Positions 138 to 52,366 of a stretch of DNA of 64,000 nt are shown piece after piece. Source of the stretch: Candidatus Woesearchaeota archaeon (GTDB lineage Archaea; Nanobdellota; Nanobdellia; Woesearchaeales; JACPJR01); assembly GCA_016187565.1 (NCBI GenBank), contig JACPJR010000015.1:1-64000 (forward strand), in the 5' to 3' direction. A program made the position numbers and the translations under genes. The notes under the pieces were generated by a model. The model worked only from the letters and a program-made list of their open reading frames with translations. It had not been told where the DNA came from and made no database searches. Within the stretch, counting starts at the first letter, position 1, and each line of letters starts with the position of its first letter.

Positions 138-188
138 CTAAAAATCGGAAACATTTAAAAGAAGAGAAACTTTCCTTAAGTGGGGTAA

Positions 189-430
189 GCTAGACCGGTG
201 CGCTAGCCCTGCACTGTTACCATCAACGGGCTCTACGATGGGGTCGAAGCCTTAGATGAGGCTATAGCAAGCTATACTAGTCTTGATTGTGCCGATGAAA
301 TTCTGTCCCTTAGGATTGGTTCTTTTGGGAACCGGGTCAGACCTTGACGGGAGCAGCCCTCACCACTTGGACTGGTGCTTAAGGGGAAGCGGAATGAAGA
401 ATCAGTCAGGAACAACTAGCGTGGTCTTCT
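189..430 (+). ncRNA. ffs: Archaeal SRP RNA (7S RNA)
   Basis: This is the RNA scaffold of the signal recognition particle. The S-domain core is visible: GTCAG at 336-340 faces AGCAGCCC at 352-359, which is the asymmetric internal loop of helix 8 that binds SRP54. Helix 6 is the hairpin GGTTC (318-322)/GAACC (329-333). Helix 5 is supported by GTCCCTTAG pairing with CTTAAGGGG. In the Alu domain, CTGTTACC near 213-220 matches the conserved UGUAA-type loop. Terminal helix 1 closes with AGACC (192-196)/GGTCT (423-427) and CGCTAG (201-206)/CTAGCG (416-421). The ends are set from this helix and may be off by a few bases. The helix 8 apical loop is not the usual GGAA. Confidence 0.85.
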
Positions 431-494
431 GTTGTCCAGTCTGAGGTGTGCTTACCTCTTTCTCTCTCTCGTATCTTTCCTCCAACATTTCGGT

Positions 495-8857: not shown

Positions 8858-9115
8858 TTACCTCTTCAAGTACTCATTCCAAATATCATCACTTTTATTG
8901 GCCCAAACTTCTTTTAAGGATTTCTCGCTAAACTTTAAAATGTCCTTAAAATCTTCTTGTAATCTTTGCTCTGTTCGTTCTGCCTTTTCAATAACGATTT
9001 TATTATTCAGTTGTATAATGATCAACTCATCTCCTCGTTCAATTCCTAGCGTCTCTCTTATTGATTGTGGAATGGCAATTTGTCCTTTTTCTGATACCTT
9101 TATTGTTTTCATCAT
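8858..9115 (-). CDS. AbrB/MazE-type antitoxin
   Basis: The 85-residue protein opens with a swapped-hairpin DNA-binding domain: KVSEKGQIAIPQSIRETLGI then GDELIII (residues 5-36). A charged C-terminal tail (about 45-85) would bind the toxin. It is the first gene of the pair and has GAGGTCA seven bases before the ATG. An imperfect palindrome directly downstream of its TATA box is a plausible autoregulatory site, as is usual for this family. Confidence 0.88.
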   Translation of the reverse strand: MMKTIKVSEKGQIAIPQSIRETLGIERGDELIIIQLNNKIVIEKAERTEQRLQEDFKDILKFSEKSLKEVWANKSDDIWNEYLKR

Positions 9116-12107: not shown

Positions 12108-12160
12108 CTCCCCTCACTTTCGCTACGGTTAGGGTTTGATTTCCAAGATATGTTTCGTTT

Positions 12161-12279
12161 TCATTTGTTTGCTGGGTTAATACCCTGCCCCTTGGGGCGA
12201 CGTCCTTGTTTAATGTCTGCCGTTCCCAGCAAACATTAAAAATACCCCACCGCTTGCGGTGATTGGGATTTTTATTTTC
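12161..12279 (-). repeat. Three-hairpin dispersed repeat, copy 1
   Basis: About 118 bp that reappear, inverted, at 52070-52186. Read on the minus strand it contains three successive hairpins. Hairpin I has stem CACCGC-AA-GCGGTG inside flanking AAAAAT/ATTTTT arms. Hairpin II is ATGTTTGCTG-GGAA-CGGCAGACAT with a GNRA-type loop. Hairpin III is GCCCC-AA-GGGGC. GTTTGCTGGG and CCCAGCAAAC could also pair as an alternative outer helix. Compared with copy 2, hairpin I shows an A-T to G-C double change that keeps pairing. It lies 54 bp upstream of the leuS reading frame. The rest of the 12108-12481 spacer holds the palindromic promoter and no gene that I can see. Confidence 0.75.
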
Positions 12280-12318
12280 CCTTACTTTTCTTGTTCATGT
12301 TTCAGAATCTTCGAGGTT

Positions 12319-12356
12319 TATATAAAGGTTTTGACATAAACCAAAACCTTTATATA
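12319..12356. promoter_or_regulatory. Bidirectional palindromic promoter (two TATA boxes in 15-bp inverted repeats)
   Basis: Arms TATATAAAGGTTTTG (12319-12333) and CAAAACCTTTATATA (12342-12356) are exact reverse complements around an 8-bp spacer. Each arm contains a TATA box preceded by a BRE-like run, and the boxes point away from each other: one toward leuS and one toward the secreted-protein gene at 12482. Archaeal TATA/BRE logic makes this a divergent promoter, and the symmetry could also be a repressor site. Confidence 0.65.
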
Positions 12357-12481
12357 GGAGTTGCTACTCCGCAATGGTACTCTTTGGGGGAATGTATGGT
12401 AGATAGTTGGTCTGTAGCTAGTAATTATGATGGTTATATCGACTCAATAAAGCTTAATAAATACTGATGTAGGTGACCCAT

Positions 12482-14059: not shown

Positions 14060-14176
14060 ACCTCTCTACGAAGCTCTCTCTCAATGACGGAGAGTATAAC
14101 TTACTGCTCACAAAGTACTACAAAAAATAAACAAAGAAATAAAACAATGGCAAAAAACAAACAGGGGGTTTCCACT

Positions 14177-17100
14177 ATGGCTCAGGGTACGCATTCTCTC
14201 CATACGCTATTCACTTTTGGCAGTCGTGTAATGCTTTTTTGTATGATCATCCTTTCCTTAGCAATGAGTGCTGAGGCAATTACCACAACAGGATATTGGG
14301 ATGTAGCAGGAAAACCCCAATCATTAGATGTTGATTTTGGAGAAGATGCTCGTTTTTATTACAATGTCTGTAGTGTCAAAGGCCAATTTGAATATCGTGT
14401 CAGGTTCCTCTATGAAGATGATGTGTTAAAAGAAATACTGGTACCTGAGCAGAATTATGTAGGCAGTTGTAAATCAGACTTTGTTACGATAACTGATGAT
14501 ACCTATCAAGATGAAGAAGAAGACTTTATTGTTGAAATCTGGGGAGATGACGGTGCTAAAAGTACCAAAAAATTGTATTTAACGGTTAATGATAACCGAC
14601 TTCCTAACGAGCCTCCTGAACTGGACAGGTCATTACCTGATGTCAGCTTTAATGAAGATGAACGCCTTACTGACGAATTTGATCTTGATGATTACTTTTC
14701 TGATGAAGATCCTTTAAGCTACAGCGCTAGGGGGAACACTCATGTCAAAGTTTCTATTGACGGAGGAAATAAAGTAGACTTCTGGGCAGACCCCAACTGG
14801 TCTGGATCAGAGGATGTTACCTTTACGGCAAGTGACGGTGAGTTAAGTGTCTCAGATACTATAAGAGTAACGGTTCTCCCAGTCAATGATCCTCCTTTCC
14901 TCACGCAACCGATCACCGATGTCAGCTTTAATGAAGATCAACAGGTTAATGATCAATTTGATCTTGACAATCATTTTGATGATATAGATAGTGCTGTTCT
15001 CTCTTACTCAGTTGAAAATACCAATCATGTCCATGTTTTAATTGATGCAGATAATAACGTAAGCTTCTCGGCGGATGCAGATTGGTCTGGCTCAGAGGAC
15101 ATTACCTTTAGAGCAAGTGATGGCCAGTACAGTGTCTCAGATACTATGAAAGTAACGGTTCGTCCAGTAAATGATCCTCCGGTAAAAACCAGATCATTAC
15201 CTGACGTAACCTTTAACGAAGATGAACGGGTTAATGACGTGTTTGACTTAGATGACTATTTCAGAGATACTGATAGCACATTACACTACTATGCTGAAGA
15301 TACCATCTATGTCCATCTCCTGATTGATGCACAGAATAAAGTAGATTTCTGGGCAGATGCCAATTGGAATGGCAACGAAAAGGTTGTCTTTGTTGCTTAT
15401 GATGAATACTCTGAAGTGAGTGACGAAATTCTCGTGACTGTTCGTCCAGTGAATGATCCTCCTCTTAAACCAAGTAATCCTGATCCCTTTGTTGGTGAAA
15501 CAAATGTCATTATTAATCATGATTTGAGTTGGCAAAGTGGTGACATTGATGGAGATACTATAACGTATGACATTTACTTTGGTACAACTCCTTATCCACC
15601 AAAGGTACGAAGCAATCATCCAAGCAAGAGTTATGATCCTGGAACAATGTTGTATGAAACGCAATACTATTGGAAGATTGTTGCTCGTGACAGTAACTCT
15701 GCTGAAACTGCTGGAGATCTCTGGTACTTCACCACAGAGGAACAGGTTATTACTAATCAACCTCCGGTAGTTACTGACATTGGTGGTTATACTAATCCTG
15801 ATAGCGGGTTGATTAACTTCACTGCTCAAGCAGCAGATCCAGATCTTGGCGATCGTGTTGAACAGGTCGAGTTCCAGGTGAAGGTCGATGAAGGGCTTTC
15901 CATGATGAAGATCGGTCAGGGAGATTGGGTAACGAAGTGTGTTGATACTCGAGAACCATGGAACTGTGCATGGGACAGTACCCAAGAGGTACCGACAAAG
16001 ACTGAAGTCGAAGTACGAGCTCGAGCCTACGACGGAGAACTCTGGGGAAATTACAGAACAGAGGGACCTTTTACGGTTGATAATGACCGTGAAGCACCAG
16101 TTATTACCTTAATCACTCCTCAAAACAATGCGCGGGTTTCAGGCGTAGACGTTGACTTTACCTATAAAGCAGAGGATACAATAAATGCTCTTTCGAGTTG
16201 TACTTTATATGTTGATGGTAGTAGTAAAGGCAGGCATAGCAATCCTCAAGAAAGTACGCCATTGACCTTTTCAGATGTTGATCTCGTCGATGGAACACAT
16301 CAGTGGTGGGTCAATTGTACTGATACTGCACCTAATCCTAATGAAGGTAAGAGTCAGGTATGGAACTTGTACGTTAACCACAGTTTAAGCGATAGAAGCC
16401 CTCCTGTTGTTCAATTACTTTCGCCTCCGAATAATGAAATAGTTGAGGGTGTTGATGTTCAGTTTATGTATAATGTCACCGATCTTGATTCAGGTATTGC
16501 CTCATGTAATCTTTACTTGAATGGCGTGCTTGATCAAACTGACAGCAGCATCAGAGAAGCCATTCCCCAAACCTTTGTCAAGAGATACTTAGCTGACGGA
16601 ACGTACAAATGGAATGTTTCCTGTACTGACGATTCTCTTAATAGGAATGTTGGATATAGTACTACGTGGACGCTCCATGTCGATCATTCCTTGGGAAACC
16701 TACCTCCGGTAGTTACAGACATCGGTGGTTATACTGATCCTGATAGCGGGTTGATTAACTTCACTGCTCAAGCAGCAGATCCAGATCTTGGCGATCGTGT
16801 TGAACAGGTCGAATTCCAGGTGAAGGTCGATGATGGGTTTTCCATGATGAAGATCGGTCAGGGAGATTGGGTAACGAAGTGTGTTGATACGCGAGAACCA
16901 TGGAACTGTGCATGGGACAGTACCCAAGAGGTACCGACAAAGGCTGAAGTCGAGGTACGAGCTCGAGCCTACGACGGAGAACTCTGGGGAAATTACAGAA
17001 CAGAGGGACCTTTTACGGTTGATAATGACCGTGAAGCACCAGTTATTACCTTGATTACTCCTCAAAACAATGCACGGGTTTCAGGCGTAGACGTTGACTT

Positions 17101-20074
17101 TACGTATGAAGCAGAAGATACAATAAATGCTCTTTCCAGTTGTACTTTGTATGTTGATGGTACCAGTAAAGGCACGCACCGCAATCCTCAAGAAAGTACG
17201 CCATTGACCTTTTCAGATGTTGATCTTGTTGATGGAACTCATCAATGGTGGGTCAATTGTACTGATACTGCACCTAATCCTAATGAGGGCAAGAGCGAGG
17301 TATGGAACTTGTACGTTAACCACAGCTTAGGAGATCATAATGCTCCTGTTGTTCAGTTACTTGCGCCTCCAAATAATAAGATGGTTGAGGGAGTGAATGT
17401 CAGATTTGTCTACAATGTCACCGATCTTGATTCAGGTATTGCCTCATGTAATCTTTACTTGAATGGCGTGCTTGACCAAACTGACACAAGCATTACTGAA
17501 AACCTTCCACAGACCTTTGTCAAGGGATACTTAGCTGATGGAACCTACAAATGGAATGTTTCCTGTACTGACGATTCCCTTCGTCGTAATGTTGGCTACA
17601 GTGAAACAAGAACGCTTCATGTTAACCATTCCTTAGAAAACCATGCCCCTGTTGTTACTGATATTGCAAATTATACTGATCCTGACAGTGGCTTTATCAA
17701 TTTCAGCATTGAAGCTTATGACCCCGATCTGTGGGATCATGTCGAGCAGGTAAAATTAGACATCTATTTTAATGGTAGTTATCACAATGAAATCTGTGTT
17801 GATACAGTTGAGCCATGGAATTGTGAGTGGAATAGCACTGAAGATATTCCTACGAAAGACGAACGCGTTAAGTTACGTGCATGGGCATTTGATGGAGAGC
17901 TCTGGAGTGAGCCGTACAAGGAATACTGGATTACCATTGATAATGATTTCCAAGCACCTCTTATCACGTTAATTGCTCCTGAAAACAATGCCGAACTTAC
18001 TAATACATCCGTGGATTTTACGTACAGTGTCTTTGATGAGATCAGTAACATCAGTTCCTGTTCTCTTGTCGTTGACAATAGTGTGACACGAACAACCGTA
18101 AACCCACCTGAGCAGACAGCCTTAACCTTTGCTGATGTTGCATTAACTCCAGGAACACATACCTGGTATGTTAACTGTACTGATGGGTCTTTTAATGTAA
18201 ACACGGGAAAGAGTGAGGTTCGATCGTTAACCATGAGTGGTGTCAGTGGAAACCTACCTCCGGTTGCTTCCTTTATGTACGATCCAGCACAGCCATTTGT
18301 TGATGATCTGGTGACCTTTAATGGATCCTTAAGTAGCGATCCTGACAATGATACCTTAACCTACAGTTGGGACTTTACCAATGATGGTATTGAGGATGCC
18401 AACACCGTGGTTGCTACCTATACGTTTAGAACTGCTGGTATTTATCCGGTTGCGCTTACGGTTTCAGACGGAGCATTGTCTGACATTGAACGTCAGGATG
18501 TTGTTGTCTCGGATAAAGAACCCGGCCAATTGAATATCACCGAACTTTCGTGCTTTGAACGGGTGGTTGTTAACCATAATCAGAGCTGTAGCGTCTTTGT
18601 TGAAGCAGAGGGAGTTCCTACGGGCAATGCACAGGTTAGCCTCTTTTATAATGATGGGACTTTTATTGACTCTTGTCAAACGAACAATATTAGTGGCGCA
18701 TGTGCAGTACTTTATCCGGTAACTGAAGAGGGAAACTATACGGTTTATGCAGAGGCATCAAAAGTAGGATATCTACCAGATAAGGATACAGAACCTGACT
18801 TTACCTATCGGGTCTTTGCAGAACGATACGATATCCAGAATCTTGCTACGTATAATGATACTGCCTTTACCCAGTATGATGATGACTTTTTTAGAGGACA
18901 AAATCTCTATACGAAATTCCGGATCTATGACCTTGTCGAAGAACAGTATGTCAGTGATGCCGTTAGTAGCTCTACCTTAGTAAGCAATGACGGGGGCGGA
19001 AGAGCTGATCTATCTGTCTATCAAACCTTGAATGACACCTGGTATTACTACACCTTACTCATTCCCCTGACGCACGATTTCATTGGTGATAGTAATGTCT
19101 TTGCCTTTACCTTTAATGACCTTAACCAGAGTGGTGGTCAAGAACAAACGCCACTGTTTATCAGAAATAATCCTCCGTTGATTACACCGCCGGTTGGACC
19201 AATAACCACTGATCTTGAAGAGGCTGTCACCATAGATCTCACACAGCATGAGTTTGACCTTGAGGATAGTGGGAATGACTTGAGTTGGGACGTGGAAGGT
19301 GTTAATGAAACCATTGCATCCGTACATATTAATGAGCAAAAGGTGTTAACCATTACTCCACGGGCAGTTGGTGTGGATTCCTTTACGCTCATGTTACGAG
19401 ACCTTGATGGCGATGCTGCTAGTGAGGAAATCTTCCTTACTATTGGAGAACCAAACCCAACCTTTGATCCTATTGCAATTCCCGGTGGGCCTTATGTCGC
19501 CACGGCGGGAGCAACTCTTGTTGTTGATGGAAGTAAGAGTTATGATCCTGATGGTGGTAACATTACCCGCTATGATTGGAACTGGGGTGACAGTAGTTCC
19601 CATTCGGGAAGCGCTACCCCAAGCCACGTCTATAAAGAAGAAGGAACGTATACCATAACACTCAGGGTTTGGGATGATGAGGACGAGCAAGGGATTGCGA
19701 CAACCAAGGTTGTTGTCAATGCAGGGGATACGGTAAGCGATCGTGATAAATATCCGCAACGAAAGTTACATATCAGTGAAGTTCGCATCTTGCCAGAGGT
19801 TACAAAGCCCGGAAGTGAGGTTGTTGTCCTGGTTACGGTAAAAAATGACGGCCTTCGTGATGAAGATTCCATCAAAATCGAAGCCGTTATGCCTGAATGG
19901 GGTGAATGGCAGTCACGAATACAAGAAGATGTCGATGACGGGGACTCTATCACCGAGCGTTTTGTATTTACGGTTCCACCGTCACAACGAAGAGGGACAT
20001 ACACCCTGCGAGTAGCTGTTGTCACTGAAGATTTAGTGAAGCGTGTTCTCTACCGCGATATTATCGTGCATTGA
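14177..20074 (+). CDS. Giant multidomain secreted surface protein (cadherin-like, Ig-like, PKD, CARDB repeats)
   Basis: The 1965-residue protein starts at the ATG after GGGGGT, a spacing shared with the next two surface genes. The frame is open 93 bp further upstream. A signal peptide (MLFCMIILSLAMSAEA) ends near residue 36. Three ~95-residue cadherin-like repeats (about 147-430) share DVSFNEDE and NDPP motifs. A FnIII-like domain follows (about 430-523). Two nearly identical 314-residue modules and a shorter diverged third fill about 528-1355. Two PKD domains are near 1358-1445 and 1761-1850; the second has YDWNWGDSS. A CARDB-like domain closes the protein. No C-terminal membrane segment is seen, so it may bind the S-layer or its membrane-anchored neighbours. 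An adhesion role is inferred from domain types. Confidence 0.85.
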   Translation: MAQGTHSLHTLFTFGSRVMLFCMIILSLAMSAEAITTTGYWDVAGKPQSLDVDFGEDARFYYNVCSVKGQFEYRVRFLYEDDVLKEILVPEQNYVGSCKSDFVTITDDTYQDEEEDFIVEIWGDDGAKSTKKLYLTVNDNRLPNEPPELDRSLPDVSFNEDERLTDEFDLDDYFSDEDPLSYSARGNTHVKVSIDGGNKVDFWADPNWSGSEDVTFTASDGELSVSDTIRVTVLPVNDPPFLTQPITDVSFNEDQQVNDQFDLDNHFDDIDSAVLSYSVENTNHVHVLIDADNNVSFSADADWSGSEDITFRASDGQYSVSDTMKVTVRPVNDPPVKTRSLPDVTFNEDERVNDVFDLDDYFRDTDSTLHYYAEDTIYVHLLIDAQNKVDFWADANWNGNEKVVFVAYDEYSEVSDEILVTVRPVNDPPLKPSNPDPFVGETNVIINHDLSWQSGDIDGDTITYDIYFGTTPYPPKVRSNHPSKSYDPGTMLYETQYYWKIVARDSNSAETAGDLWYFTTEEQVITNQPPVVTDIGGYTNPDSGLINFTAQAADPDLGDRVEQVEFQVKVDEGLSMMKIGQGDWVTKCVDTREPWNCAWDSTQEVPTKTEVEVRARAYDGELWGNYRTEGPFTVDNDREAPVITLITPQNNARVSGVDVDFTYKAEDTINALSSCTLYVDGSSKGRHSNPQESTPLTFSDVDLVDGTHQWWVNCTDTAPNPNEGKSQVWNLYVNHSLSDRSPPVVQLLSPPNNEIVEGVDVQFMYNVTDLDSGIASCNLYLNGVLDQTDSSIREAIPQTFVKRYLADGTYKWNVSCTDDSLNRNVGYSTTWTLHVDHSLGNLPPVVTDIGGYTDPDSGLINFTAQAADPDLGDRVEQVEFQVKVDDGFSMMKIGQGDWVTKCVDTREPWNCAWDSTQEVPTKAEVEVRARAYDGELWGNYRTEGPFTVDNDREAPVITLITPQNNARVSGVDVDFTYEAEDTINALSSCTLYVDGTSKGTHRNPQESTPLTFSDVDLVDGTHQWWVNCTDTAPNPNEGKSEVWNLYVNHSLGDHNAPVVQLLAPPNNKMVEGVNVRFVYNVTDLDSGIASCNLYLNGVLDQTDTSITENLPQTFVKGYLADGTYKWNVSCTDDSLRRNVGYSETRTLHVNHSLENHAPVVTDIANYTDPDSGFINFSIEAYDPDLWDHVEQVKLDIYFNGSYHNEICVDTVEPWNCEWNSTEDIPTKDERVKLRAWAFDGELWSEPYKEYWITIDNDFQAPLITLIAPENNAELTNTSVDFTYSVFDEISNISSCSLVVDNSVTRTTVNPPEQTALTFADVALTPGTHTWYVNCTDGSFNVNTGKSEVRSLTMSGVSGNLPPVASFMYDPAQPFVDDLVTFNGSLSSDPDNDTLTYSWDFTNDGIEDANTVVATYTFRTAGIYPVALTVSDGALSDIERQDVVVSDKEPGQLNITELSCFERVVVNHNQSCSVFVEAEGVPTGNAQVSLFYNDGTFIDSCQTNNISGACAVLYPVTEEGNYTVYAEASKVGYLPDKDTEPDFTYRVFAERYDIQNLATYNDTAFTQYDDDFFRGQNLYTKFRIYDLVEEQYVSDAVSSSTLVSNDGGGRADLSVYQTLNDTWYYYTLLIPLTHDFIGDSNVFAFTFNDLNQSGGQEQTPLFIRNNPPLITPPVGPITTDLEEAVTIDLTQHEFDLEDSGNDLSWDVEGVNETIASVHINEQKVLTITPRAVGVDSFTLMLRDLDGDAASEEIFLTIGEPNPTFDPIAIPGGPYVATAGATLVVDGSKSYDPDGGNITRYDWNWGDSSSHSGSATPSHVYKEEGTYTITLRVWDDEDEQGIATTKVVVNAGDTVSDRDKYPQRKLHISEVRILPEVTKPGSEVVVLVTVKNDGLRDEDSIKIEAVMPEWGEWQSRIQEDVDDGDSITERFVFTVPPSQRRGTYTLRVAVVTEDLVKRVLYRDIIVH
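15761..16702 (+). repeat. 942-bp tandem repeat, unit 1, inside the giant surface gene
   Basis: It begins at CCTCCGGTAGTTAC and encodes a 314-residue module with two Ig-like parts. By eye it is about 90-95% identical to the next unit over its first 600 bp, with most differences silent or single residues. The repeat length is a multiple of three, so unit gain or loss keeps the frame. Confidence 0.85.
16703..17644 (+). repeat. 942-bp tandem repeat, unit 2
   Basis: It directly follows unit 1 with the same boundaries. A third, diverged and shorter unit continues from 17645 to about 18243. The gradient of similarity (1 and 2 close, 3 distant) implies a recent duplication of the first unit. Confidence 0.85.
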
Positions 20075-40334: not shown

Positions 40335-41696
40335 TCAAGAAATCCTTCTAACCACTCCCCGCTCTGCATCTACTTCGACTGCATCACCGTCATGAAGAAT
40401 TTTTGTTGCAATTTTCGTGCCCACAATGCAGGGGATGTGCATTTCTCTTGCAATGACTGCAGCATGTGATGTCAGACCACCCTCGTCAGTAACAATAGCA
40501 GCACATTTTGCCATGGTTGGTGTAAAGGTTGGAAAGGTGTATGTTGCAACAAAAATATCCCCATTATTTACTTTGGCAAGGTCATCAGAATGACTGATGA
40601 TTTTCACTGGTCCTTGTGCCTTTCCTCGACAGGCAACAATACCTGTAATTTGTTTGATTGATTTCCATGGTTTTTCGAGTAAAGTAATCGTTTTCTTGAC
40701 GACGCGTTGGTCGTAAGTAATAAAAATCCTTCCCTTCAAGAAGTGATAGATCGCCGAGCTTTCTGTACGCTGGTTAAGTTTTTCCGGGATTGTTCCCTTA
40801 GTTAAGAACTCTTTAATTTCTTTACTACAGCAATTTGCAGCCAGAGCTAATGAAATGTTTGCCTTTGTAGCAAGATATTGATAAAATGGTTGGAGGAGGA
40901 ACATAGCTTCCTTCCACGTGTCAATACGATCAGTCTTGAGAAAGCTATAAGTATGGACAATTTCAACCTTTTGTTTGAGTGTTATGTCCAAGGTATTGAG
41001 GAATTGACGGTATCGTTGTTCTGCTTGAGAAAAAGCTTTCTGCTGTGGCATTTCTTGTTTGTTGGTTTGCTGACGAAGTTTGACATAATCCTTCATCGTA
41101 TAGGGGTGGTCATAGACACTGTACATGTTAAGCCACTGATACTTTGCTAGCCAGGCTTCTCCGGTAAATCTAAACAGATCATTGAGCATATTTTGGTAAA
41201 CAATAGGTTGTGTTAAGGCAGTTATTGTTTCTGCATGATCTCCTAACTGTTGTAATACTTCTGGTTCTATAAAATAAATAACCGCCCATGCACCAAAAAT
41301 GTACTCACAGAACTCATAGGCTTTTTTGTTGTAATCGTCGAATGCCTTAAGAATGGTTGTAACATTTCTCTTTTTAAAACTGCATGATTGGGATACTGCC
41401 TTAGCAGCCTGAAAAACAGCATTCTTTTTTTTTGGATATTCGTGGAGATGACGCTTCCATTCAGCCTGCAGTTGTATGCTTAATGCTTTGAGTGTTGCAA
41501 GAAACGAATCTTCATGGGCATAAGCCTCAAAAACGTTATGACGAGAAACATCACAGTAACTTTCTGTTCCGTGGTTTAGAATCCACCAAATGTATACTTC
41601 TTCACGACTGATGCATGATTCTCGTGTAACGAATTTTATATGATTTCCTTTTACGAGGATTTTTTTTGGATATTGAATCACATATGGTTGTATCAT
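40335..41696 (-). CDS. PEP-mobile-domain protein, paralogue 1
   Basis: The 453-residue protein ends with a PEP-utilising-enzyme mobile domain (about 345-453): VACRGKAQGPVKII, ATYTFPTFTPTMAKCAAIV, then TDEGGLTSHAAVIAR with the phosphorylatable His411. The N-terminal ~340 residues are helical and divergent, sharing with its paralogues the AKYQWLNMYSVYD-type motif (about 210). PEP synthase, PPDK and rifampin phosphotransferase have this swivel domain next to an ATP-grasp domain, but no ATP-grasp or PEP-binding barrel is seen here. It is the last PEP gene of the block, 25 bp after paralogue 2. Substrate and phosphate donor are unknown. Confidence 0.85.
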   Translation of the reverse strand: MIQPYVIQYPKKILVKGNHIKFVTRESCISREEVYIWWILNHGTESYCDVSRHNVFEAYAHEDSFLATLKALSIQLQAEWKRHLHEYPKKKNAVFQAAKAVSQSCSFKKRNVTTILKAFDDYNKKAYEFCEYIFGAWAVIYFIEPEVLQQLGDHAETITALTQPIVYQNMLNDLFRFTGEAWLAKYQWLNMYSVYDHPYTMKDYVKLRQQTNKQEMPQQKAFSQAEQRYRQFLNTLDITLKQKVEIVHTYSFLKTDRIDTWKEAMFLLQPFYQYLATKANISLALAANCCSKEIKEFLTKGTIPEKLNQRTESSAIYHFLKGRIFITYDQRVVKKTITLLEKPWKSIKQITGIVACRGKAQGPVKIISHSDDLAKVNNGDIFVATYTFPTFTPTMAKCAAIVTDEGGLTSHAAVIAREMHIPCIVGTKIATKILHDGDAVEVDAERGVVRRIS

Positions 41697-41721
41697 GGTA
41701 TTTCTTTCTTATGACAAGGTG

Positions 41722-43134
41722 TCACACCAATTTTTTCACCACACCATTGGTTGCATCAACCTCAACCAGGTCATTGTCCTTTAAGCGCTGTGTTACTGCC
41801 TTGACTCCAACAATACAAGGAACTCCCAATTCTCTGGAAACTACGGCTGCATGACAGGTTATGCCGCCTTCTTCAGTAACAATAGCTCCTGCCTTTTTCA
41901 TGATGGGTACAAATTCTGGTCTCGTGTTGTATGTTACCAGTATCTCTCCTTGTTTCATCCTTGAAAAATCTTTAATACTAATAATAACTCTAACTCTTCC
42001 CCTGGCTTTTCCGTTACAGGCAGGCATGCCCTTGATCTCCGTACCTTCCATACAAATAGCGGCATCATAGACTGCTTTGATTTCTTCTGCATCCTTTCCA
42101 TACCACACAAATGATCCTTGCTTATAATCGTAAAGGCCACAGCTTTTGTTCCCAATAGCTTTTAACTCTTTTTCTTTTTTTGAGAAAAGATCAGTAACAA
42201 TAGTATGGGCAGAGAGTTGTTCGAAAAGGTGATAATCAATGGATCTTCTTCTCCCAATCTCCTGCAAAAATCTTTTTAAGAGAACATTTCCTTTTGCCTG
42301 GCATCGTTTCCTCATATCTCTTCGCTTTGCTAAGAGTGCCATAAATTGAAGAAAGAGCAGAGTCTTAGGAGGTAAGTTATATTTTTTTAAGATCATTTGC
42401 TTTGCTTTTCGTGTCTCTTCAATTCTTTTATTTATTTCAGTAAGTCTTTCTTTAGCGTTAGATAAATGTTGTAATCGTTCCAAAAAGTGAGAAACAGGTT
42501 CTATCTCGATATATCCGTAGTTATTGGTATACCAAAAAAATTCCTGCTGATGCTGTTCAATTGTTTTTTTTGAGAGGCAAAGTTTTATTTTCAGAAGGCT
42601 AACTTCCTCTTCCTGAGTATATGACATCTCATCCGGCAACAATAATGTCTTAATCTCTTCCTTCGATAATTTCATGGTATGCTCTTCTTCCATAATCTCT
42701 TGTAGCTGCTCTTCCCAACACAAATCAAAGGAATCAATAAAGATAAATGGTTTCCATACCGATGAATATAATTGATTAACATTGGCAAGCGACAGTCTCA
42801 ATTCCTCATCTGAATGCTTTTCAAGAAGCACATATCGCTGGAGAGCTTTGTCTAATTCTTCTTCCCTTGTATCATGTTCTTTTACTAATCGTTTGCTATA
42901 ATCCTTTTCAGAAAAAAGATTTTGGAGTATACTTACTGAGAGCCGTTCTAATCCATCTATATATAGTCCCCAGTTTCCATGGCCGTTAAAGCAAAAGGCC
43001 ATCATCGTTTCATAGCCATGATCACTATCAAAAATAGCTGGGTTGATTGGTGCAGTCATATAGAAAAATTTAGTCTCCCCTCCCTGATTATACCACGTTG
43101 TTTTTCGAATAAAGTCAATATGTCTCTGTCTCAT
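41722..43134 (-). CDS. PEP-mobile-domain protein, paralogue 2
   Basis: 470 residues. The N terminus has the TTWYNQGG variant of the family WY motif (about 12). The helical middle has QEFFWYTNNYGYIEIEPV (about 220) and an R-R-D-M-R-K block (about 275). The C-terminal swivel domain (about 365-470) has GTEIKGMPACNGKARGRVR, VTYNTRPEFVPIMKKAGAIV and TEEGGITCHAAVVSR with His428. All hallmark residues of the phosphohistidine loop are present. No ATP-binding domain is visible. It is 31 bp after paralogue 3 on the same strand, probably one transcript. Confidence 0.86.
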   Translation of the reverse strand: MRQRHIDFIRKTTWYNQGGETKFFYMTAPINPAIFDSDHGYETMMAFCFNGHGNWGLYIDGLERLSVSILQNLFSEKDYSKRLVKEHDTREEELDKALQRYVLLEKHSDEELRLSLANVNQLYSSVWKPFIFIDSFDLCWEEQLQEIMEEEHTMKLSKEEIKTLLLPDEMSYTQEEEVSLLKIKLCLSKKTIEQHQQEFFWYTNNYGYIEIEPVSHFLERLQHLSNAKERLTEINKRIEETRKAKQMILKKYNLPPKTLLFLQFMALLAKRRDMRKRCQAKGNVLLKRFLQEIGRRRSIDYHLFEQLSAHTIVTDLFSKKEKELKAIGNKSCGLYDYKQGSFVWYGKDAEEIKAVYDAAICMEGTEIKGMPACNGKARGRVRVIISIKDFSRMKQGEILVTYNTRPEFVPIMKKAGAIVTEEGGITCHAAVVSRELGVPCIVGVKAVTQRLKDNDLVEVDATNGVVKKLV

Positions 43135-43165
43135 TCAATCGCCTTTTTTACTTTTTTTGACGTCA

Positions 43166-44629
43166 TCATTGTTCGGTGATCTTTATAATTCCTTTGTCTG
43201 CATCAACGCTAACAACCATACCGTCTTTTAACACCTTTGTTGCAATCTGCGTTCCAATAATGCAAGGCACGTTTAATTCTCTTGCGATAACCGCTGCATG
43301 GCAGGTAATGCCGCCCTCATCAGTAATAATAGCTGCTGCTTTTTTCATAAGAGGAACGTATTCTGGCCTTGTCATATGGGCAACGAGAATATCCTTTTCA
43401 TTAAATTTCCCAAAGTGTGATTCACCAAGCACAACTCTAATAATGCCCGTTGCTTTTCCACGACACGCTGTTGTCCCTTTAATATTTTTTCCAATATTTT
43501 CAAATGATTTTGAAAGAAGCTGATAATACTCTTTTGCTTCTTCTTCAAGCACTCGAATAATTTGGTTTTTTGAATAGATGCTCATGATAATTTCCTGGCG
43601 TTTTGCAATGATCTGTTGGTATTCTTTTTTTGTTCTTCCTTTTGCAATGTCTTCTGCTCGGCAAACCCGCCATTCCTTGTACGGTATGTCAGTAATCTCT
43701 TCCATGCGCCTGATGCACTGATCATAATAGTGATTCAACAAAAGCACGGCTTTCTTTCGATGATCACGGAGGTAGGTTAACTCCTGAAAAAAATAGAAGA
43801 TGTTATCAAGATCGTCGCTCCAAGTATACTTTTCTCGAATTTTTTGATGCTTTTTTGTCCAATCTGTTGTGAGATCAATAATCTGCTCCTCAATAACCTC
43901 TTTTTTCTCCAGAATTAACTCTTGTAATCTTTTTTCAAAATCCTCTGTGGTTAAGATTTTAGTTGACTCCCAGCTGTTGTCAATGAAAAAGTATTTTTTC
44001 GCGTGATTTTGCAGAAATGCTTTCGCACTGGTGACTCCTGAAATGCTTTTTTTCTTTCCAAGGCATTCCTTAGCAAATGTAAGCATGCTGAACCTTTCTT
44101 CCTGTACATAGTTATGCTGTGGATAACGAAGCATTGTTGACCTCTCTTTTTGGCTCAGTTTGCAACCTTCTTTCTTGCAATACTCGTCGAAGAGATCATC
44201 TCCGTTAGGATCAAAGAATTCACAGACAAAGGCTAATTTCCAAAAAGCAAAATTGTGTTCATCAAGAGTAGTAAGTGTTTCTTTAACTGTTTTAAAATCA
44301 GCCGTTGGAAAATCAATAACCAAAAGTTTCTCATGGAGTGCTTCGATTTGTGCAATCTTCTGGTGAACTGGCTGAACAACACTATCAACATATGCACGGT
44401 TTTTCTCTTGCCTCTTAAGCATCTCCCTTGCTTTACTGTTCAATTCGTCAAGTAAGAAAAAGCCTTCACAATGGTGCCTGTTTTTCAAAAGAAAAAATCC
44501 AAGTTCTGTGCCAATACATTCCAATGCTCCATCACCACCTGTCAAAATATAATATGCCCTTGAATTCGCCGCCATGTGGTACCATTTCTTTCTCTGAATG
44601 ACATTGATGATATCTTTTCTAAGATTCAT
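43166..44629 (-). CDS. PEP-mobile-domain protein, paralogue 3
   Basis: 487 residues, the closest relative of paralogue 4, with which it shares most of the C-terminal 110 residues. Features in order: RKKWYHMAANSRAYYIL near the start, AKKYFFIDNSWESTKILT (about 215), YLRDHRKKAVLLLNHYYD (about 290), then the swivel domain with VAHMTRPEYVPLMKKAAAI and TDEGGITCHAAVIAR, His444. Its start codon overlaps the stop of paralogue 4 by 4 bp, implying coupled translation. Function unknown beyond likely phosphohistidine formation. Confidence 0.87.
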   Translation of the reverse strand: MNLRKDIINVIQRKKWYHMAANSRAYYILTGGDGALECIGTELGFFLLKNRHHCEGFFLLDELNSKAREMLKRQEKNRAYVDSVVQPVHQKIAQIEALHEKLLVIDFPTADFKTVKETLTTLDEHNFAFWKLAFVCEFFDPNGDDLFDEYCKKEGCKLSQKERSTMLRYPQHNYVQEERFSMLTFAKECLGKKKSISGVTSAKAFLQNHAKKYFFIDNSWESTKILTTEDFEKRLQELILEKKEVIEEQIIDLTTDWTKKHQKIREKYTWSDDLDNIFYFFQELTYLRDHRKKAVLLLNHYYDQCIRRMEEITDIPYKEWRVCRAEDIAKGRTKKEYQQIIAKRQEIIMSIYSKNQIIRVLEEEAKEYYQLLSKSFENIGKNIKGTTACRGKATGIIRVVLGESHFGKFNEKDILVAHMTRPEYVPLMKKAAAIITDEGGITCHAAVIARELNVPCIIGTQIATKVLKDGMVVSVDADKGIIKITEQ

Positions 44630-46092
44630 TGAATCACCGTTATAATTCCCTTTGTTGCATCAACTTCTACTTGCATGCCATCCTTTAATACCTTTGTTGC
44701 CACCTGCGTCCCAATAATGCAGGGTACGTTTAATTCTCTTGCGATAACCGCTGCATGGCAGGTAATGCCGCCTTCATCGGTGATAATAGCAGCAGCTTTT
44801 TTCATGAGTGGAACGTATTCTGGCCGAGTCATTGGTGCAACGAGAATGTTTCCGTCTTCAAACTTACCAAAATGGGTTTCTCCCATCACGATTTTTACAA
44901 TTCCTTGTGCAATCCCTTGGCACGCTGGTGTTCCTGTAATGCTTTCACCTTTATGTATAAATTCTTTTGAGAGAAGGTCATAAAATAATTTCCCATGTTG
45001 AGGATCAACTGTCCAAATCTCTTGACCAGAGGAAAGCTTCATAATAATCTCTTTCCTACTCGCAAAAATTTTTTCATATTCCTCAGCGGTTCTGCCTTCT
45101 TTCAGATCACTTACTTTAGCAAGACTCCATTCTTCAAATGACACTCCAGTAATCTCCGAAATCCGTTGATACAGTACATCATACCAATGATTGTTCAGCA
45201 GGACATATTTTTTTCGCTCATCACGAAGGAACATTAATTGCTGAAAAAGATAGATTACACGTTGCAATCGAGTGTTTATATTACGTTGTTTGATTATTTC
45301 TTTTTGTTTCGCATGCCAATCGGTTGTTAATTCCTCAATCTGTTTCTTTATCTCTTTTTCAGGTAATGTCATCAACTCTTTCAATCGCTGCTTAAAATCC
45401 TCAGATGTCAAGATTTTTGTCTGAGCCCAGCTATTCTCAATGAAGAAATATTGAGCAGCATGATCTTTAAGAAAGGTACGGACTACTGGATTTTTCAGGA
45501 TCAGTTTTTTTGTTTTACAAGCAAGAGCCATCTCGAGGATTGCAAGACGTTCTTTTTGCCCATAGTGGGGTATTAAAGGGCGAAGTAAAAGATTAAGTTC
45601 TTCTCTGTCTAGGGATACTTTTGCATCTGCTATTTCCTTATGCAACAGTGCTTCACCGTGTGGATCAAAGATATCACAGATAAAAACTTCTTTCCACAAG
45701 TCAACGCTGTTTTGCTCTAATTCCCTGAGAAGTTGGAGGATTTTCTGAAATGATGCGGCATCGAGAGTATTATTTCTCTGGTTATCATAAAAAGATTCGC
45801 ACTGTCGCATTTTTTCCAAACATCGTTTTATAACATGATCAATACATGATTCTGAGGATCGGTTTTCTATTTGATCTTTGAGAATAGTGGTTGTTTTTAC
45901 TAGAAATTCTTGATCAGGAAAAAAACCTTCAAACATTTTTCGTTCCCGAATAAGAACAAAGGCTAAATCTACATCCATACACGTAAGTCCTCCATCACTT
46001 GCTCCCCAGATATAGCAAAGTTTTCCATGCGCTCCCTGGTAATACCATTTCCTCTTAGTTATTGCATCAATGATCTGTGGTTTAGTTTTCAT
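44626..46092 (-). CDS. PEP-mobile-domain protein, paralogue 4
   Basis: 488 residues. KRKWYYQGAHGKLCYIW lies near the start, AQYFFIENSWAQTKILTSED about 220, FLRDERKKYVLLNNHWYD about 295. The swivel domain (about 380-488) has VAPMTRPEYVPLMKKAAAI and TDEGGITCHAAVIAR, His446. The pairing with paralogue 3 in sequence and order indicates a tandem duplication. The double-hairpin sequence at 46125-46213 lies directly upstream, in what would be its leader. Confidence 0.87.
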   Translation of the reverse strand: MKTKPQIIDAITKRKWYYQGAHGKLCYIWGASDGGLTCMDVDLAFVLIRERKMFEGFFPDQEFLVKTTTILKDQIENRSSESCIDHVIKRCLEKMRQCESFYDNQRNNTLDAASFQKILQLLRELEQNSVDLWKEVFICDIFDPHGEALLHKEIADAKVSLDREELNLLLRPLIPHYGQKERLAILEMALACKTKKLILKNPVVRTFLKDHAAQYFFIENSWAQTKILTSEDFKQRLKELMTLPEKEIKKQIEELTTDWHAKQKEIIKQRNINTRLQRVIYLFQQLMFLRDERKKYVLLNNHWYDVLYQRISEITGVSFEEWSLAKVSDLKEGRTAEEYEKIFASRKEIIMKLSSGQEIWTVDPQHGKLFYDLLSKEFIHKGESITGTPACQGIAQGIVKIVMGETHFGKFEDGNILVAPMTRPEYVPLMKKAAAIITDEGGITCHAAVIARELNVPCIIGTQVATKVLKDGMQVEVDATKGIITVIQ

Positions 46093-46124
46093 GTTCGTTG
46101 TTCTTTATCTTTTTACTACAACTA

Positions 46125-46213
46125 TAGGAAAAGACATTAATTTTCGTAATAATTTGTATGTCTTTTCCTAATAAGCAAAGGACATAAAGTTACGGTTATT
46201 AGTGTCCTTTGCT
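46125..46213. repeat. Tandem double hairpin between PEP paralogues 5 and 4
   Basis: Hairpin 1: TAGGAAAAGACAT (46125-46137) with ATGTCTTTTCCTA (46158-46170), 20-nt AT-rich loop. Hairpin 2: AGCAAAGGACA (46174-46184) with TGTCCTTTGCT (46203-46213), 18-nt loop. Both stems are perfect. The layout copies that of the 35741 and 38697 elements, with different arm sequences. It begins 4 bp after the stop codon of the 46217 gene in the direction of transcription. Confidence 0.7.
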
Positions 46214-46216
46214 ACA

Positions 46217-47683
46217 CTAGTCAGTATGAGTGATGATGGTTATTTTCCCGATTTTCAAATCAAGCTCAATATCATTACCATCCTTGAGCACTTTGGTACC
46301 AACTTTTGTGCCGATGATACACGGAATATGTAATTCCCGACAAATAACGGCTGCGTGACAGGTAATGCCACCTTCATTAGTTATGATTGCCCTTGCCTTC
46401 TTCATTAAGGGAACCATATCTGGTCGTGTCATTGAGGTTACTAAAATATCTCCATCTTGCATGTGTTTTGCTCGGTCAATAGTAAGGATAATTCGTGCTT
46501 TTCCTCTTATTGTTGTATCCTCACCTCGAGAGGCGACTGTTCCTTGTAAAGTCGTCGTTTGTGTTGGGGAAGGTAGTACGAGCTCTGTCAGCAATGCTGC
46601 TTCTTTATTAGTATATAGATGAAGTTTTTGGTCAGTAGTCATAAAGATGACTGCATGTTGCCATCGCTCTTGAAGCATTTTTCGATCAATTTTTCCGTTT
46701 AATAGATATGGAATCTCTGTATAGATTGTTGCGGCAACTTCCTCTAGAGGAAGTGATGTTCTTTTTACAATTTCCTTTAAAAATTCATGCTGATAATAAA
46801 GTGCTTCCAAGCATGCTGCTTTTCGGTCATCCTGCCAATGAATAAAGAAGTCAATAAATTCAACGAGCAATTGAAGCTCGTGTGAAGCGTGTAGCGTATC
46901 AAGGATTTCTTTCTTCCTTTCGTTACCTGTTTCATAGTTTTGGGTAATCTTTGTCTGCTCTCCCTTTGCTTTCTCAAAACGTTTTTTAACTTCATGTTCA
47001 ACATGCTCTTTTCCAAGAAAAAGTGCACGTTCATAATTATTTTCTACCCAGTGAAATTGTTTGACGTGTAAGGTAATCATCTGCTGAACAGCCTTACTCT
47101 TAAGGCCTTGTTTTTTTGCTCCTTCTGTAATAGTCAGCAAAGAAGATTCACAACGACTACTGAACGATGGTTTTGATGGGTGGGTGAGCTCAATAAAATA
47201 TTGCTCAGCGTGTTTTCCCAATAATTCTTTCAGATGATTTTCAGCAAAAAAAGCAAAACTATTGGTAATAACAGGCATTGCATATTCCTGCAGATATAAT
47301 TCATTAAATCTCATGAAATAATTGAGAAATTCTTCCTCAGAACATCGTGAAAGATCAGCAGCGTTAAGGATTGTATAGTATTCCTGTAGTTCTTTTCGAT
47401 AGTGCTGCCATTGACGGTAATACGGGGTAAGAAACTGATGGTCCTTCATAAGAGCAGTAAATATATTTTTCCCGATACGTTTACAATCGTTCATTTCCCA
47501 TATCCAGACTGCTTTATTTTCATTGAAAAGAGTAATAGTTACCTTATGATACAAAGGGAATTGTTTCGGTAGCAAAACCATATTTGCATAAAAGGGACTA
47601 AAAAACGTATGTATATACCCAGACATTTCCTCAACATACCACTCAGGATGTTCAAATCCAAAAAGTTCTTTTGTGTTGTTCAT
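46217..47683 (-). CDS. PEP-mobile-domain protein, paralogue 5
   Basis: 488 residues. It begins with FGFEHPEWYVEEMSGYIHTF. The middle motif is KQFHWVENNYERALFLGKEH (about 225), then FIHWQDDRKAACLEALYYQ (about 280). The swivel domain is GTVASRGEDTTIRGKARI, VTSMTRPDMVPLMKKARAI and TNEGGITCHAAVICR, His443. A short lead-in insertion (GEDTT) before the GKA motif sets it apart. Its ATG overlaps the stop of the Schlafen-AlbA-type gene by 4 bp, tying that regulator to the block. Confidence 0.86.
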   Translation of the reverse strand: MNNTKELFGFEHPEWYVEEMSGYIHTFFSPFYANMVLLPKQFPLYHKVTITLFNENKAVWIWEMNDCKRIGKNIFTALMKDHQFLTPYYRQWQHYRKELQEYYTILNAADLSRCSEEEFLNYFMRFNELYLQEYAMPVITNSFAFFAENHLKELLGKHAEQYFIELTHPSKPSFSSRCESSLLTITEGAKKQGLKSKAVQQMITLHVKQFHWVENNYERALFLGKEHVEHEVKKRFEKAKGEQTKITQNYETGNERKKEILDTLHASHELQLLVEFIDFFIHWQDDRKAACLEALYYQHEFLKEIVKRTSLPLEEVAATIYTEIPYLLNGKIDRKMLQERWQHAVIFMTTDQKLHLYTNKEAALLTELVLPSPTQTTTLQGTVASRGEDTTIRGKARIILTIDRAKHMQDGDILVTSMTRPDMVPLMKKARAIITNEGGITCHAAVICRELHIPCIIGTKVGTKVLKDGNDIELDLKIGKITIITHTD

Positions 47684-49011
47684 GTATGTTTCTCTGTTAA
47701 AGATTTATTAATTTCCCAGTACCCTCCTTTTGCAGAACCTAGTCTTTTCAATAGCCCTTTTTTCTTTAACGCCTCTATATTTTTATCAATAGCCGTCGTG
47801 CTTATGCCTATCGTCTTAGACATTTCCCTCTTAGAGATTCGTGGATTCTTAGCTATCAGATTGAGTATTCTCTTTTGGTTTTCTACCAACCCTTCTACCA
47901 ACCCATCTACTAACCCTTCCGTCTGCTCTATTTTCCTCTTAAATAGAGTAATAAAGATCCCAGCCACTATCTTGAAATCGGTGGTGGGCTCTTTGGATAA
48001 AATTAGTTTAATACCACGCCCCCATTTTTCACCAAAATGGATACGATGAAACATCTCTGCAATAAGCTCGTTTCTTCGTCTCGAAACTTCCTCTTTCTTG
48101 ATTTTCTCAATCGTAAGGCCACCATACAAACCACCAGGATTCCTTATCTCTAATCTGCCTTTAAAGATAGCAATGTTTACAGAATCAAATTCATGATAAT
48201 CACGGTGACAAAAAGCGTTGATTATAGCTTCACGGAATGCTGCACGATCTATTTCAGGCACGTCGATCCGATACAACCCCTCTACTCGCATGCCAATGTG
48301 GATATTCTCTAAAATATACTTTTCCGCTTTTTCAATCAATGTAAAGACATCTCCCACAAAATCCTGCATATCAATGGTGGTTGCAGTAGTTTCACCAAAG
48401 ACGGCACAACGTAATCTAGCATTAGGAAAGAAATCTTCGGGATGCTTTCCAAAAAAAAGAACAGCAGTATTCAACAGTTTCTCTTCTTTCATTAAGCCTA
48501 ATTTTTCTAGTGAACTTTTAACAGAACCGTGTTTTAAACCTGCTAATTTGACAAACGCTTTTATCTTTTTTTCATCAATATCCTTCAATTTCGCCTTAAG
48601 GCAGAATTCAATATCCCACTGAAGTTTATCTTTATTTTTTCTTATGATGATATGTTCTATTTCTTGAGGACTTATTTTCTTATCTTCATCCCCAACACGG
48701 ACATAAGCACGACCATATGCGTAATAAGGAATGTCATTCCCACCAAATTCAACGCGAACACACTTCTTTGCTTCCAAAACTACTTCGTTAATTGTTGGGA
48801 ATATTTTCGGCTCAATGTGCTGAGCGATAGTTTGAGATATTTCCCGAATAGTATTTTCGGTAACTGTTTGCCCAACGATTTCCCCGTTATTTTTAATCCC
48901 AAAATAGAGTTCACCTTTCTGATGCTTATTCAGAATAGAGACTATTGAAATCATAGCTTCTTTTATTTCAGAGGTGGATTTTTTGAGTTCGAGGTGTTCA
49001 GATTCTTTCAT
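47680..49011 (-). CDS. Schlafen AlbA_2 / AAA_4-type ATP-binding protein with C-terminal HTH
   Basis: The 443-residue protein has an N-terminal AlbA_2 domain (about 1-115): EHLELKKSTSEIKEAMISIV, GELYFGIKNNGEIVGQ and YVRVGDEDKKISPQEIE. A RecG-C-like GHKL ATP-binding half follows (about 240-370): REAIINAFCHRDYHEFDSV, RLEIRNPGGLYGG and GEKWGRGIKLI. A winged helix closes it (about 390-435, NPRISKREMSKTIGISTTAID). Such proteins are usually called transcriptional regulators, and some are tied to mobile or defence regions. It lies between paralogues 6 and 5 with a 3-bp gap and a 4-bp overlap, so it is part of the same transcript. Confidence 0.88.
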   Translation of the reverse strand: MKESEHLELKKSTSEIKEAMISIVSILNKHQKGELYFGIKNNGEIVGQTVTENTIREISQTIAQHIEPKIFPTINEVVLEAKKCVRVEFGGNDIPYYAYGRAYVRVGDEDKKISPQEIEHIIIRKNKDKLQWDIEFCLKAKLKDIDEKKIKAFVKLAGLKHGSVKSSLEKLGLMKEEKLLNTAVLFFGKHPEDFFPNARLRCAVFGETTATTIDMQDFVGDVFTLIEKAEKYILENIHIGMRVEGLYRIDVPEIDRAAFREAIINAFCHRDYHEFDSVNIAIFKGRLEIRNPGGLYGGLTIEKIKKEEVSRRRNELIAEMFHRIHFGEKWGRGIKLILSKEPTTDFKIVAGIFITLFKRKIEQTEGLVDGLVEGLVENQKRILNLIAKNPRISKREMSKTIGISTTAIDKNIEALKKKGLLKRLGSAKGGYWEINKSLTEKHT

Positions 49012-49014
49012 TTT

Positions 49015-52025: not shown

Positions 52026-52069
52026 GGCATCTTCCTCACCAGCGAATATTCTCGCTTCCACTGGAAAAC

Positions 52070-52186
52070 AAATAAAAATCCCAACCGCCACAAGCGGCGG
52101 GGTATTTTTAATGTTTGCTGGGAACAGCAGACATCAAACAATAAGGCCGCCCCAAGGGGCGGGGTATCAACCCAGCAAACAAATGA
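52070..52186 (+). repeat. Three-hairpin dispersed repeat, copy 2
   Basis: About 117 bp, the inverted copy of 12161-12279. Hairpins on the plus strand: CCGCC/GGCGG within AAAAAT/ATTTTT arms, ATGTTTGCTG-GGAA-CAGCAGACAT, and CCGCCCC-AA-GGGGCGG. It fills the divergent spacer between PEP paralogue 7 and the GT2 gene. The rest of that 341-bp spacer holds only the GT2 promoter (CTTAAATAG near 52280) and ribosome site (AGAGGTATT). Confidence 0.75.
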
Positions 52187-52366
52187 ATTGTTTCCCATTC
52201 TCCAAGAAAGAGCGCATTTCTTTTTAAACGTTTTTATGAACCACGATTTGTCCTCATGGTAATTCTTATGAAAAGTCTTAAATAGAGACCAGAACACCTG
52301 TTTGGACTTTTGATCAAAAAGCCATTAACAACTCTTATAGGACTTACGTAAAAAAGAGGTATTGGT

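Follow-up and report, generated by a model that had tools for sequence, protein, structure and literature searches.

The window that we analysed (a stretch of 64,000 nucleotides from a Candidatus Woesearchaeota archaeon) contains two copies of a short, strongly folded element, and each is almost certainly a miniature, transposase-free element (MITE) of the IS200/IS605 class, of the PATE kind, in which a left end (LE) and a right end (RE) are joined directly. This reading rests on ends that are common with elements carrying tnpA, on covariation between guide and target and within the stems, on the dispersal of the element, and on its precise insertion sites; the sequences further suggest mobilisation in trans by a single-strand route. 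Copies A (12166–12276, plus strand) and B (52071–52181, minus strand) lie inverted to each other, 40 kb apart, as an earlier note on this DNA had claimed, and are 90% identical over 118 bp. Fixed against relatives, the element limits give 111 bp for either copy. The whole genome (1.94 Mb in 35 contigs, 96.7% complete) was searched at the DNA level and yielded no third copy. Both ends carry subterminal imperfect palindromes, and terminal inverted repeats are absent. Read from LE to RE, which is the plus strand for copy A and the minus strand for copy B, the layout is a target TTNATT, an arm of about 10 nt ending in GGG, a guide N'ATA and a C-rich hairpin, followed by the complementary arm, AAAAATA with the guide AATA, a second hairpin and TTGGGATTTTTATT. 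The individual features are as follows.

12160–12165, plus strand: target and left cleavage site TTCATT of copy A, which stays in the left flank (CL = TCAT); TTNATT lies 5' of the readable left ends in relatives.
12166–12276, plus strand: whole of copy A, 111 bp, delimited by many-copy comparison, autonomous IS copies and restored ORFs.
12166–12176, plus strand: left arm TGTTTGCTGGG of copy A, forming the left-end outer stem; pairs with 12225–12235, with covariation over 21 distinct sequences.
12179–12182, plus strand: left guide AATA of copy A (GATA in copy B); covaries with the target, and its first base is unpaired with TTCATT.
12187–12198, plus strand: left-end hairpin GCCCC-TT-GGGGC of copy A, from folding and from the homologous hairpin in relatives and IS elements.
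12214–12235, plus strand: local palindrome of copy A (the middle hairpin of the earlier note), including the partner arm CCCAGCAAACA at 12225–12235; own-type subfamily only.
12238–12276, plus strand: right end of copy A, AAAAATACC-hairpin-GATTGGGATTTTTATT, with guide AATA at 12241–12244 and cleavage site TTAT at 12272–12275; from covariance model R1, with right-end covariation equalled in 0 of 500 shuffles.
52182–52187, minus strand: target and left cleavage site TTCATT of copy B.
52071–52181, minus strand: whole of copy B, 111 bp.
52171–52181, minus strand: left arm of copy B, forming the left-end outer stem with the partner arm at 52112–52122; from folding and stem covariation.
52165–52168, minus strand: left guide GATA of copy B, its first base complementary to the N of TTCATT; from guide/target covariation.
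52071–52109, minus strand: right end of copy B, with guide AATA at 52103–52106 and cleavage site TTAT at 52072–52075; from covariance model R1.

The folding that had been described for these copies is confirmed on both strands of both, where every fold beats all 200 dinucleotide-shuffled sequences (z −3.8 to −5.6). The three hairpins of the earlier note are those of the left end, of the partner arm (a local palindrome) and of the right end. Also seen in the sequences of both copies is the reported double change from A-T to G-C in hairpin I (cACCGC-TT-GCGGTg in copy A, cGCCGC-TT-GTGGCg in copy B), and the competing pairings exist, as CCCAGCAAACA can pair with TGTTTGCTGGG in the left arm or with TGTCTGC[CT]G in the local hairpin. 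The GGAA loop of the middle hairpin, noted earlier as a GNRA loop in both copies, lies on the strand opposite the relevant one. The local palindrome with this loop is restricted to the own-type subfamily and missing from most relatives, which makes it a feature of a subtype rather than a conserved GNRA loop or RNA motif.

Stable folds on both strands and compensatory changes, in two copies near gene starts, would also suit a structured ncRNA or a riboswitch-like regulatory leader that acts from a divergent spacer, which were two of the options of the earlier note. We consider this exceedingly improbable. Rfam at gathering thresholds identified only an archaeal SRP RNA (183–457, plus strand) and nothing at the site, and the genes that flank the element differ between the window copies and between genomes. 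Moreover, the conserved letters are cleavage sites and guides, that is, the features of a transposon end; some genomes have copies within coding genes, and the same ends flank transposase genes. The remaining option, a non-autonomous element of the IS200/IS605 type, is the one strongly supported by ends shared with Y1-transposase elements, by guide/target covariation and by exact empty sites. A position in a divergent spacer was correctly noted for both window copies, but it does not extend to the family: among 103 copies across genomes, 37 lie between co-directional genes, 15 between convergent genes, 9 between clearly divergent genes and 4 inside ORFs, with 38 left unassigned. As only 9 of the 103 are clearly divergent, the divergent position of the window's two copies is a coincidence.

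The surroundings of the two copies hold several further features. To the right of copy A, an inverted repeat TTATATAAAGGTTTTG...CAAAACCTTTATATA at 12315–12360 is TATA-like in both directions. A PemK/MazF-like toxin gene (PF02452; 8520–8855, minus strand) has a small ORF just upstream (8858–9115, minus strand), and the two are a probable toxin–antitoxin pair. A 1996-aa protein encoded at 14084–20074 on the plus strand has domains of the bacterial Ig and PKD types and is likely to be a surface protein. Finally, the region 40335–52091 (minus strand) is an array of seven ORFs (450–520 aa), all with a PEP-utilising-enzyme mobile domain (PF00391) at the C-terminal end; a Schlafen/AlbA_2 gene lies within the array, and a Fic gene follows it. 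The array is an unusual tandem expansion, and the N-terminal parts of its ORFs gave no Pfam match except one weak DUF445.

Relatives of the element are widespread in the order. A first DNA search found them in 13 of 60 genomes. We then built a covariance model (R1) from 18 right ends, using the right end alone because whole-element MAFFT alignment misplaced the variable left arms. Its 15 pairs contain 13 double-change cells against 4.3 in shuffles (0 of 500 as good). R1 matched 101 of 353 genomes of the order, from 78 of 220 genera, with up to at least 18 copies per genome. The possibility that only two copies exist and do not covary thus describes the own genome as far as the number goes, and clearly fails across related genomes. 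Named genomes with relatives in a public scan were mostly Candidatus Woesearchaeota. In a phylum draw of 371 genomes, extra R1 matches were found only in six genomes of the same class and another order, and two copies from these other-order genomes share the same layout. An exact-pattern scan of viral contigs gave no match. Matches in bacteria (Flavobacterium, Chryseobacterium and others) were discarded, having a poor hairpin or none in the gap and a number near a rough chance estimate. The identity of the own-type copy is 93% to a copy in G221, 89% to one in G199, 87% to one in G168 and 84% to one in G226, and these genomes belong to two other families. Copy B is nearer to the G221 copy than to copy A, which suggests horizontal spread of the own-type element, with the caveat that the G221 copy lies at the end of a contig and that its bin is 5% contaminated.

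The same ends are found around a transposase gene. In one genome (G024), a 538-bp element with several near-identical occurrences consists, in order, of TTTATT, CCTTTCTGGGTTTAATACCCCGGGGCTCTGCCCCG, a 142-codon tnpA and GATACCCCGGGGCTCTGCCCCGATTGGGAGCTTTATT; its boundary is marked by at least six right-end junctions with differing flanks, and four of the contigs end inside the repeat. Elements of the form LE-tnpA-RE with the common right-end layout are present in six genomes (G024, G016, G343, G180, G123 and G214), of which G343 carries two. The left guide and target are common as well in five of the six, the left end in G214 being atypical. TnpA of these autonomous elements matches Pfam Y1_Tnp (PF01797) and has HUH (DHLH) and Y-x-x-x-Q motifs (e.g., YIKNQ). 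Both motifs characterise IS200-type TnpA, and Y-x-x-x-Q marks IS200 subclass 1.1, the sole subclass seen in Archaea (PMC6006769).

R1 matches occur in 11 of the 12 genomes with a cognate TnpA and in 90 of the 341 others (Fisher p = 6e-6), an association that is partly circular because the right ends of the IS elements themselves match R1. Only 12 of the 353 genomes yielded a cognate TnpA, against 101 with R1 matches, so most populations of the element are orphaned, depend on a more distant TnpA or come from incompletely assembled genomes. Five Y1 genes are present in the own genome, all of them without matching ends, and the best full-length one is 30% identical; with no matching TnpA there, the two window copies are probably stranded relics. 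In another genome, the right end of a MITE directly adjoins a truncated cognate tnpA where a contig ends (G018, contig C72, locus L036, about 1560–1695). This looks like an insertion into tnpA, but the sequence on the left side is not tnpA, and the contig stops at this point; aberrant transposition or an assembly break is possible.

Short palindromic multicopy repeats, mostly outside genes and involving a Y1 transposase, also call to mind domesticated REP/RAYT-like repeats, whose hairpins would be amplified by a host-fixed, non-mobile Y1 transposase and not as a self-mobile IS, and the lack of a mobile partner in many genomes fits such an origin. Three observations make it very improbable. The guide is N'ATA and not the GTAG/GTGG (or CGTC) tag of REPs, TnpA carries Y-x-x-x-Q, the motif of IS200 subclass 1.1, and is not a class-2 TnpA_REP, and the partner gene, which is multicopy in G024, lies between the same pair of ends.

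The MITE reading makes a specific prediction about how targets are chosen. In IS608, the target is not read by the protein; instead, the cleavage site is recognised by base pairing with a tetranucleotide guide that lies 5' of each hairpin, as AAAG/TTAC at the left and GAAT/TCAA at the right (PMC5934647). In our own reading of these strings, the canonical pairs are guide 1 with site 2, guide 2 with site 1, and guide 4 with site 4. For a guide N'ATA and a site TNAT, the first of these predicts that N' pairs with N. Elements with a readable left end sit 3' of TTNATT and have the left guide in the context N'ATACC, and we extracted left ends by a pattern in which N and N' were free, choosing between candidates by arm complementarity only. 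Across 68 copies, N' and N formed 48 Watson-Crick and 3 G-T pairs, where 17.4 Watson-Crick pairs were expected and none of 20,000 permutations was as good as 48. When repeats of the same arm, N and guide were collapsed, 29 of 44 were Watson-Crick against 10.9 expected, and shuffling only inside groups that share the arm start gave p = 0.00035. A single arm, TCTTAACTGGG, was found with TTTATT/AATA, TTCATT/GATA and TTGATT/CATA. These changes indicate that the guide/target pair has been re-set naturally many times across the family. Some co-variation of guide and cleavage site has already been discussed in reviews of IS200/IS605 elements, and the rule is therefore not claimed as new here.

Right ends obey comparable pairings. 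In MITEs, AATA occurs with TTAT (79 copies) and AATG with TTAC (5 cleanly parsed copies), which is the guide 4/site 4 pair; in IS elements, GATA with TTCAT (6) and CATA with TTGAT (1) represent the guide 1/site 2 pair, and GATA with TTTAT in G024 forms a G-T pair. The rule is not absolute: at the left end it is broken in 17 of the 68 copies even with G-T allowed. Copy A is among them, with AATA beside TTCATT, one point change away from the matching GATA of copy B. Some subtypes do not obey it either, such as those with AATTCC in G155 and G168 or with GATA beside TTGATT or TTAATT in G071.

The right end could have a further use. Since AAAAATCCC..GGGATTTTT is a hairpin followed by T in both directions, the element may have been exapted as a bidirectional terminator or insulator, which would be compatible with its being a MITE. 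One terminator-like match does lie inside the right end (minus strand), and 15 of the 103 copies are between convergent genes. Still, we think this improbable, as both window copies precede divergently oriented genes, a place that needs no terminator, the T-tract is accounted for by the guide/cleavage pairing of AATA with TTAT, and the position relative to genes is non-uniform.

The MITEs also have a stem of their own at the left end. The first 10 or so nucleotides of the element form it with a segment roughly 50 nt farther downstream; comparing 29 distinct arms with their own partner regions gave 232 of 290 matches, and the best of 20,000 swaps gave 200. In 21 distinct stem sequences, 93.8% of cells are paired, 61 cells have double changes against 17.6 in shuffles (0 of 500), and the covariation score is 0.80 against 0.21. 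This set was preselected for partner match, so the swap test on the 29 arms is the fairer test of pairing, and the stem set illustrates the extent of change. The stem is missing in six of seven autonomous left ends, where the arm has 5–6 of 10 matches (swapped mean 6.0); the G024 element has 8. As the match is near random in these six, the 10-bp left-end stem looks specific to the MITEs. It might juxtapose the two cleavage sites, or hide the arm and, in the short types, the guide.

Most copies of the family are located outside genes, and those that interrupt genes reveal how precisely they inserted. When the element was excised in silico, by joining the left flank through TTNATT to the right flank after the final ATT, interrupted genes were restored and no target duplication was left. 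In G294 (L156), joining yields a 359-aa product, a glycosyltransferase that continues into a Bac_transf stretch, for which there is no open frame with the element present. Other long ORFs after joining measure 378 aa (G018, L028), 191 aa (G018, L323) and 192 aa (G031, L312); the product of the last is ROK-like, and a LAGLIDADG-like gene is also rejoined (both named by eye). Pfam domains AMP-binding (in a ligase) and ATP-grasp_2 (in a synthetase) span the junction after joining.

Four copies lie in frame within protein genes and add 33–37 residues each. The hosts in G031 (L008 and L021) are an AMP-binding acyl-CoA ligase and the beta chain of a succinyl-CoA synthetase; the other two are ORFs in G097 (L105) and G220 (L314). 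Three of the four inserts start with NKNPNR, and the peptide in the G031 genes is NKNPNR.K.RGIFN. In an alignment of the synthetase to PDB 3ufx_B, query residues 1–30 fall on chain residues 1–30 and 69–388 on 38–363, which means that the extra residues fall at the element. In copies A and B, too, the length is a multiple of three and the minus strand holds an open frame, although at that length chance often gives such frames.

The following course of events is the most likely one. An IS200-like element would have lost tnpA, leaving its two ends. A Y1 HUH TnpA supplied in trans would bind the hairpin of each end on the LE-to-RE strand, where the N'ATA guide at the hairpin foot would pair with the cleavage site TNAT (1-2, 2-1, 4-4). 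TnpA would cut at the guide-paired site, and the element would exit as a single-stranded circle ('peel and paste') and re-insert 3' of a TTNAT(T) that can pair with the left guide. Copies would be amplified in trans by rounds of such excision and guide-directed insertion. The cut presumably falls after TTNAT or after TTNATT, which are not separable because both ends carry the final T. A more speculative idea, which we hold only tentatively and think rather doubtful, is that the MITEs are more than passive deletions of IS elements, having evolved a left-end stem, re-programming of the target through the guide base, and in-frame spread into protein genes. The stem may then juxtapose the ends, or lock and unlock the guide, and in several lineages a length that is a multiple of three, together with an open frame, would produce in-frame peptide inserts like those of Rickettsia palindromic elements (RPEs) but with an identifiable HUH transposase.

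This family of miniature transposons is widespread in uncultured DPANN archaea. It offers natural evidence, over dozens of element types, for a guide-target rule that came from the structures and engineering of IS608, so that target re-programming of HUH transposons becomes readable from sequence and testable. It also suggests a route, with a known type of enzyme, by which short palindromes may enter protein genes in frame, which bears on the RPE puzzle, and it warns that conserved folded spacers in such genomes need not be regulatory RNAs. The kind of element is already known; what is new, as far as our checks went, is the family, together with its natural re-targeting series, its stem peculiar to the MITEs and its in-frame insertions. 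Our search of the open-access literature, to which it was confined, found no report of the family from Woesearchaeota, and neither IS200 nor IS605 is mentioned in a review of prokaryotic MITEs from 2024, whose list of archaeal MITEs has no DPANN members.

The closest counterparts in layout are the PATEs (palindrome-associated transposable elements) of Haloquadratum walsbyi, which likewise have no terminal inverted repeats, no target duplication and no transposase gene, carry subterminal palindromes related to IS605-type ends and are multicopy in an archaeon (PMC3119063). In contrast to PATEs, the present family belongs to DPANN/Woesearchaeota, is typically about 99–125 bp long and has a 10-bp covarying left-end outer stem, and its autonomous relatives carry a tnpA of about 142 codons with no tnpB seen between the ends. 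Other archaeal MITEs with IS200/IS605 ends and no transposase, from Haloquadratum, Methanosarcina and Natronomonas, measure 341–570 bp (PMC3852290), whereas the elements described here are about 111 bp with ends that nearly abut. IS608 and ISDra2 resemble the family in having a hairpin at each end, a tetranucleotide guide 5' of the hairpin, a guide-paired cleavage and target site, and insertion 3' of a short T-rich target (TTAC, TTGAT; here TTNAT) (PMC5934647). Unlike them, the present element has neither tnpA nor tnpB, and guide and target letters that were changed together by engineering in IS608 (PMC5934647) have changed together in nature here. REP/RAYT systems share hairpins, a tetranucleotide guide and a Y1 HUH enzyme (PMC6006769, PMC2817692), but the guide sequence, enzyme subclass and layout of the present family differ from those of TnpA_REP. 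Finally, Rickettsia RPEs, by their description, are similarly short palindromes of 100–150 bp that can add a peptide in frame (PMC10969869); in the family described here, in-frame copies are a minority and the likely transposase is known.
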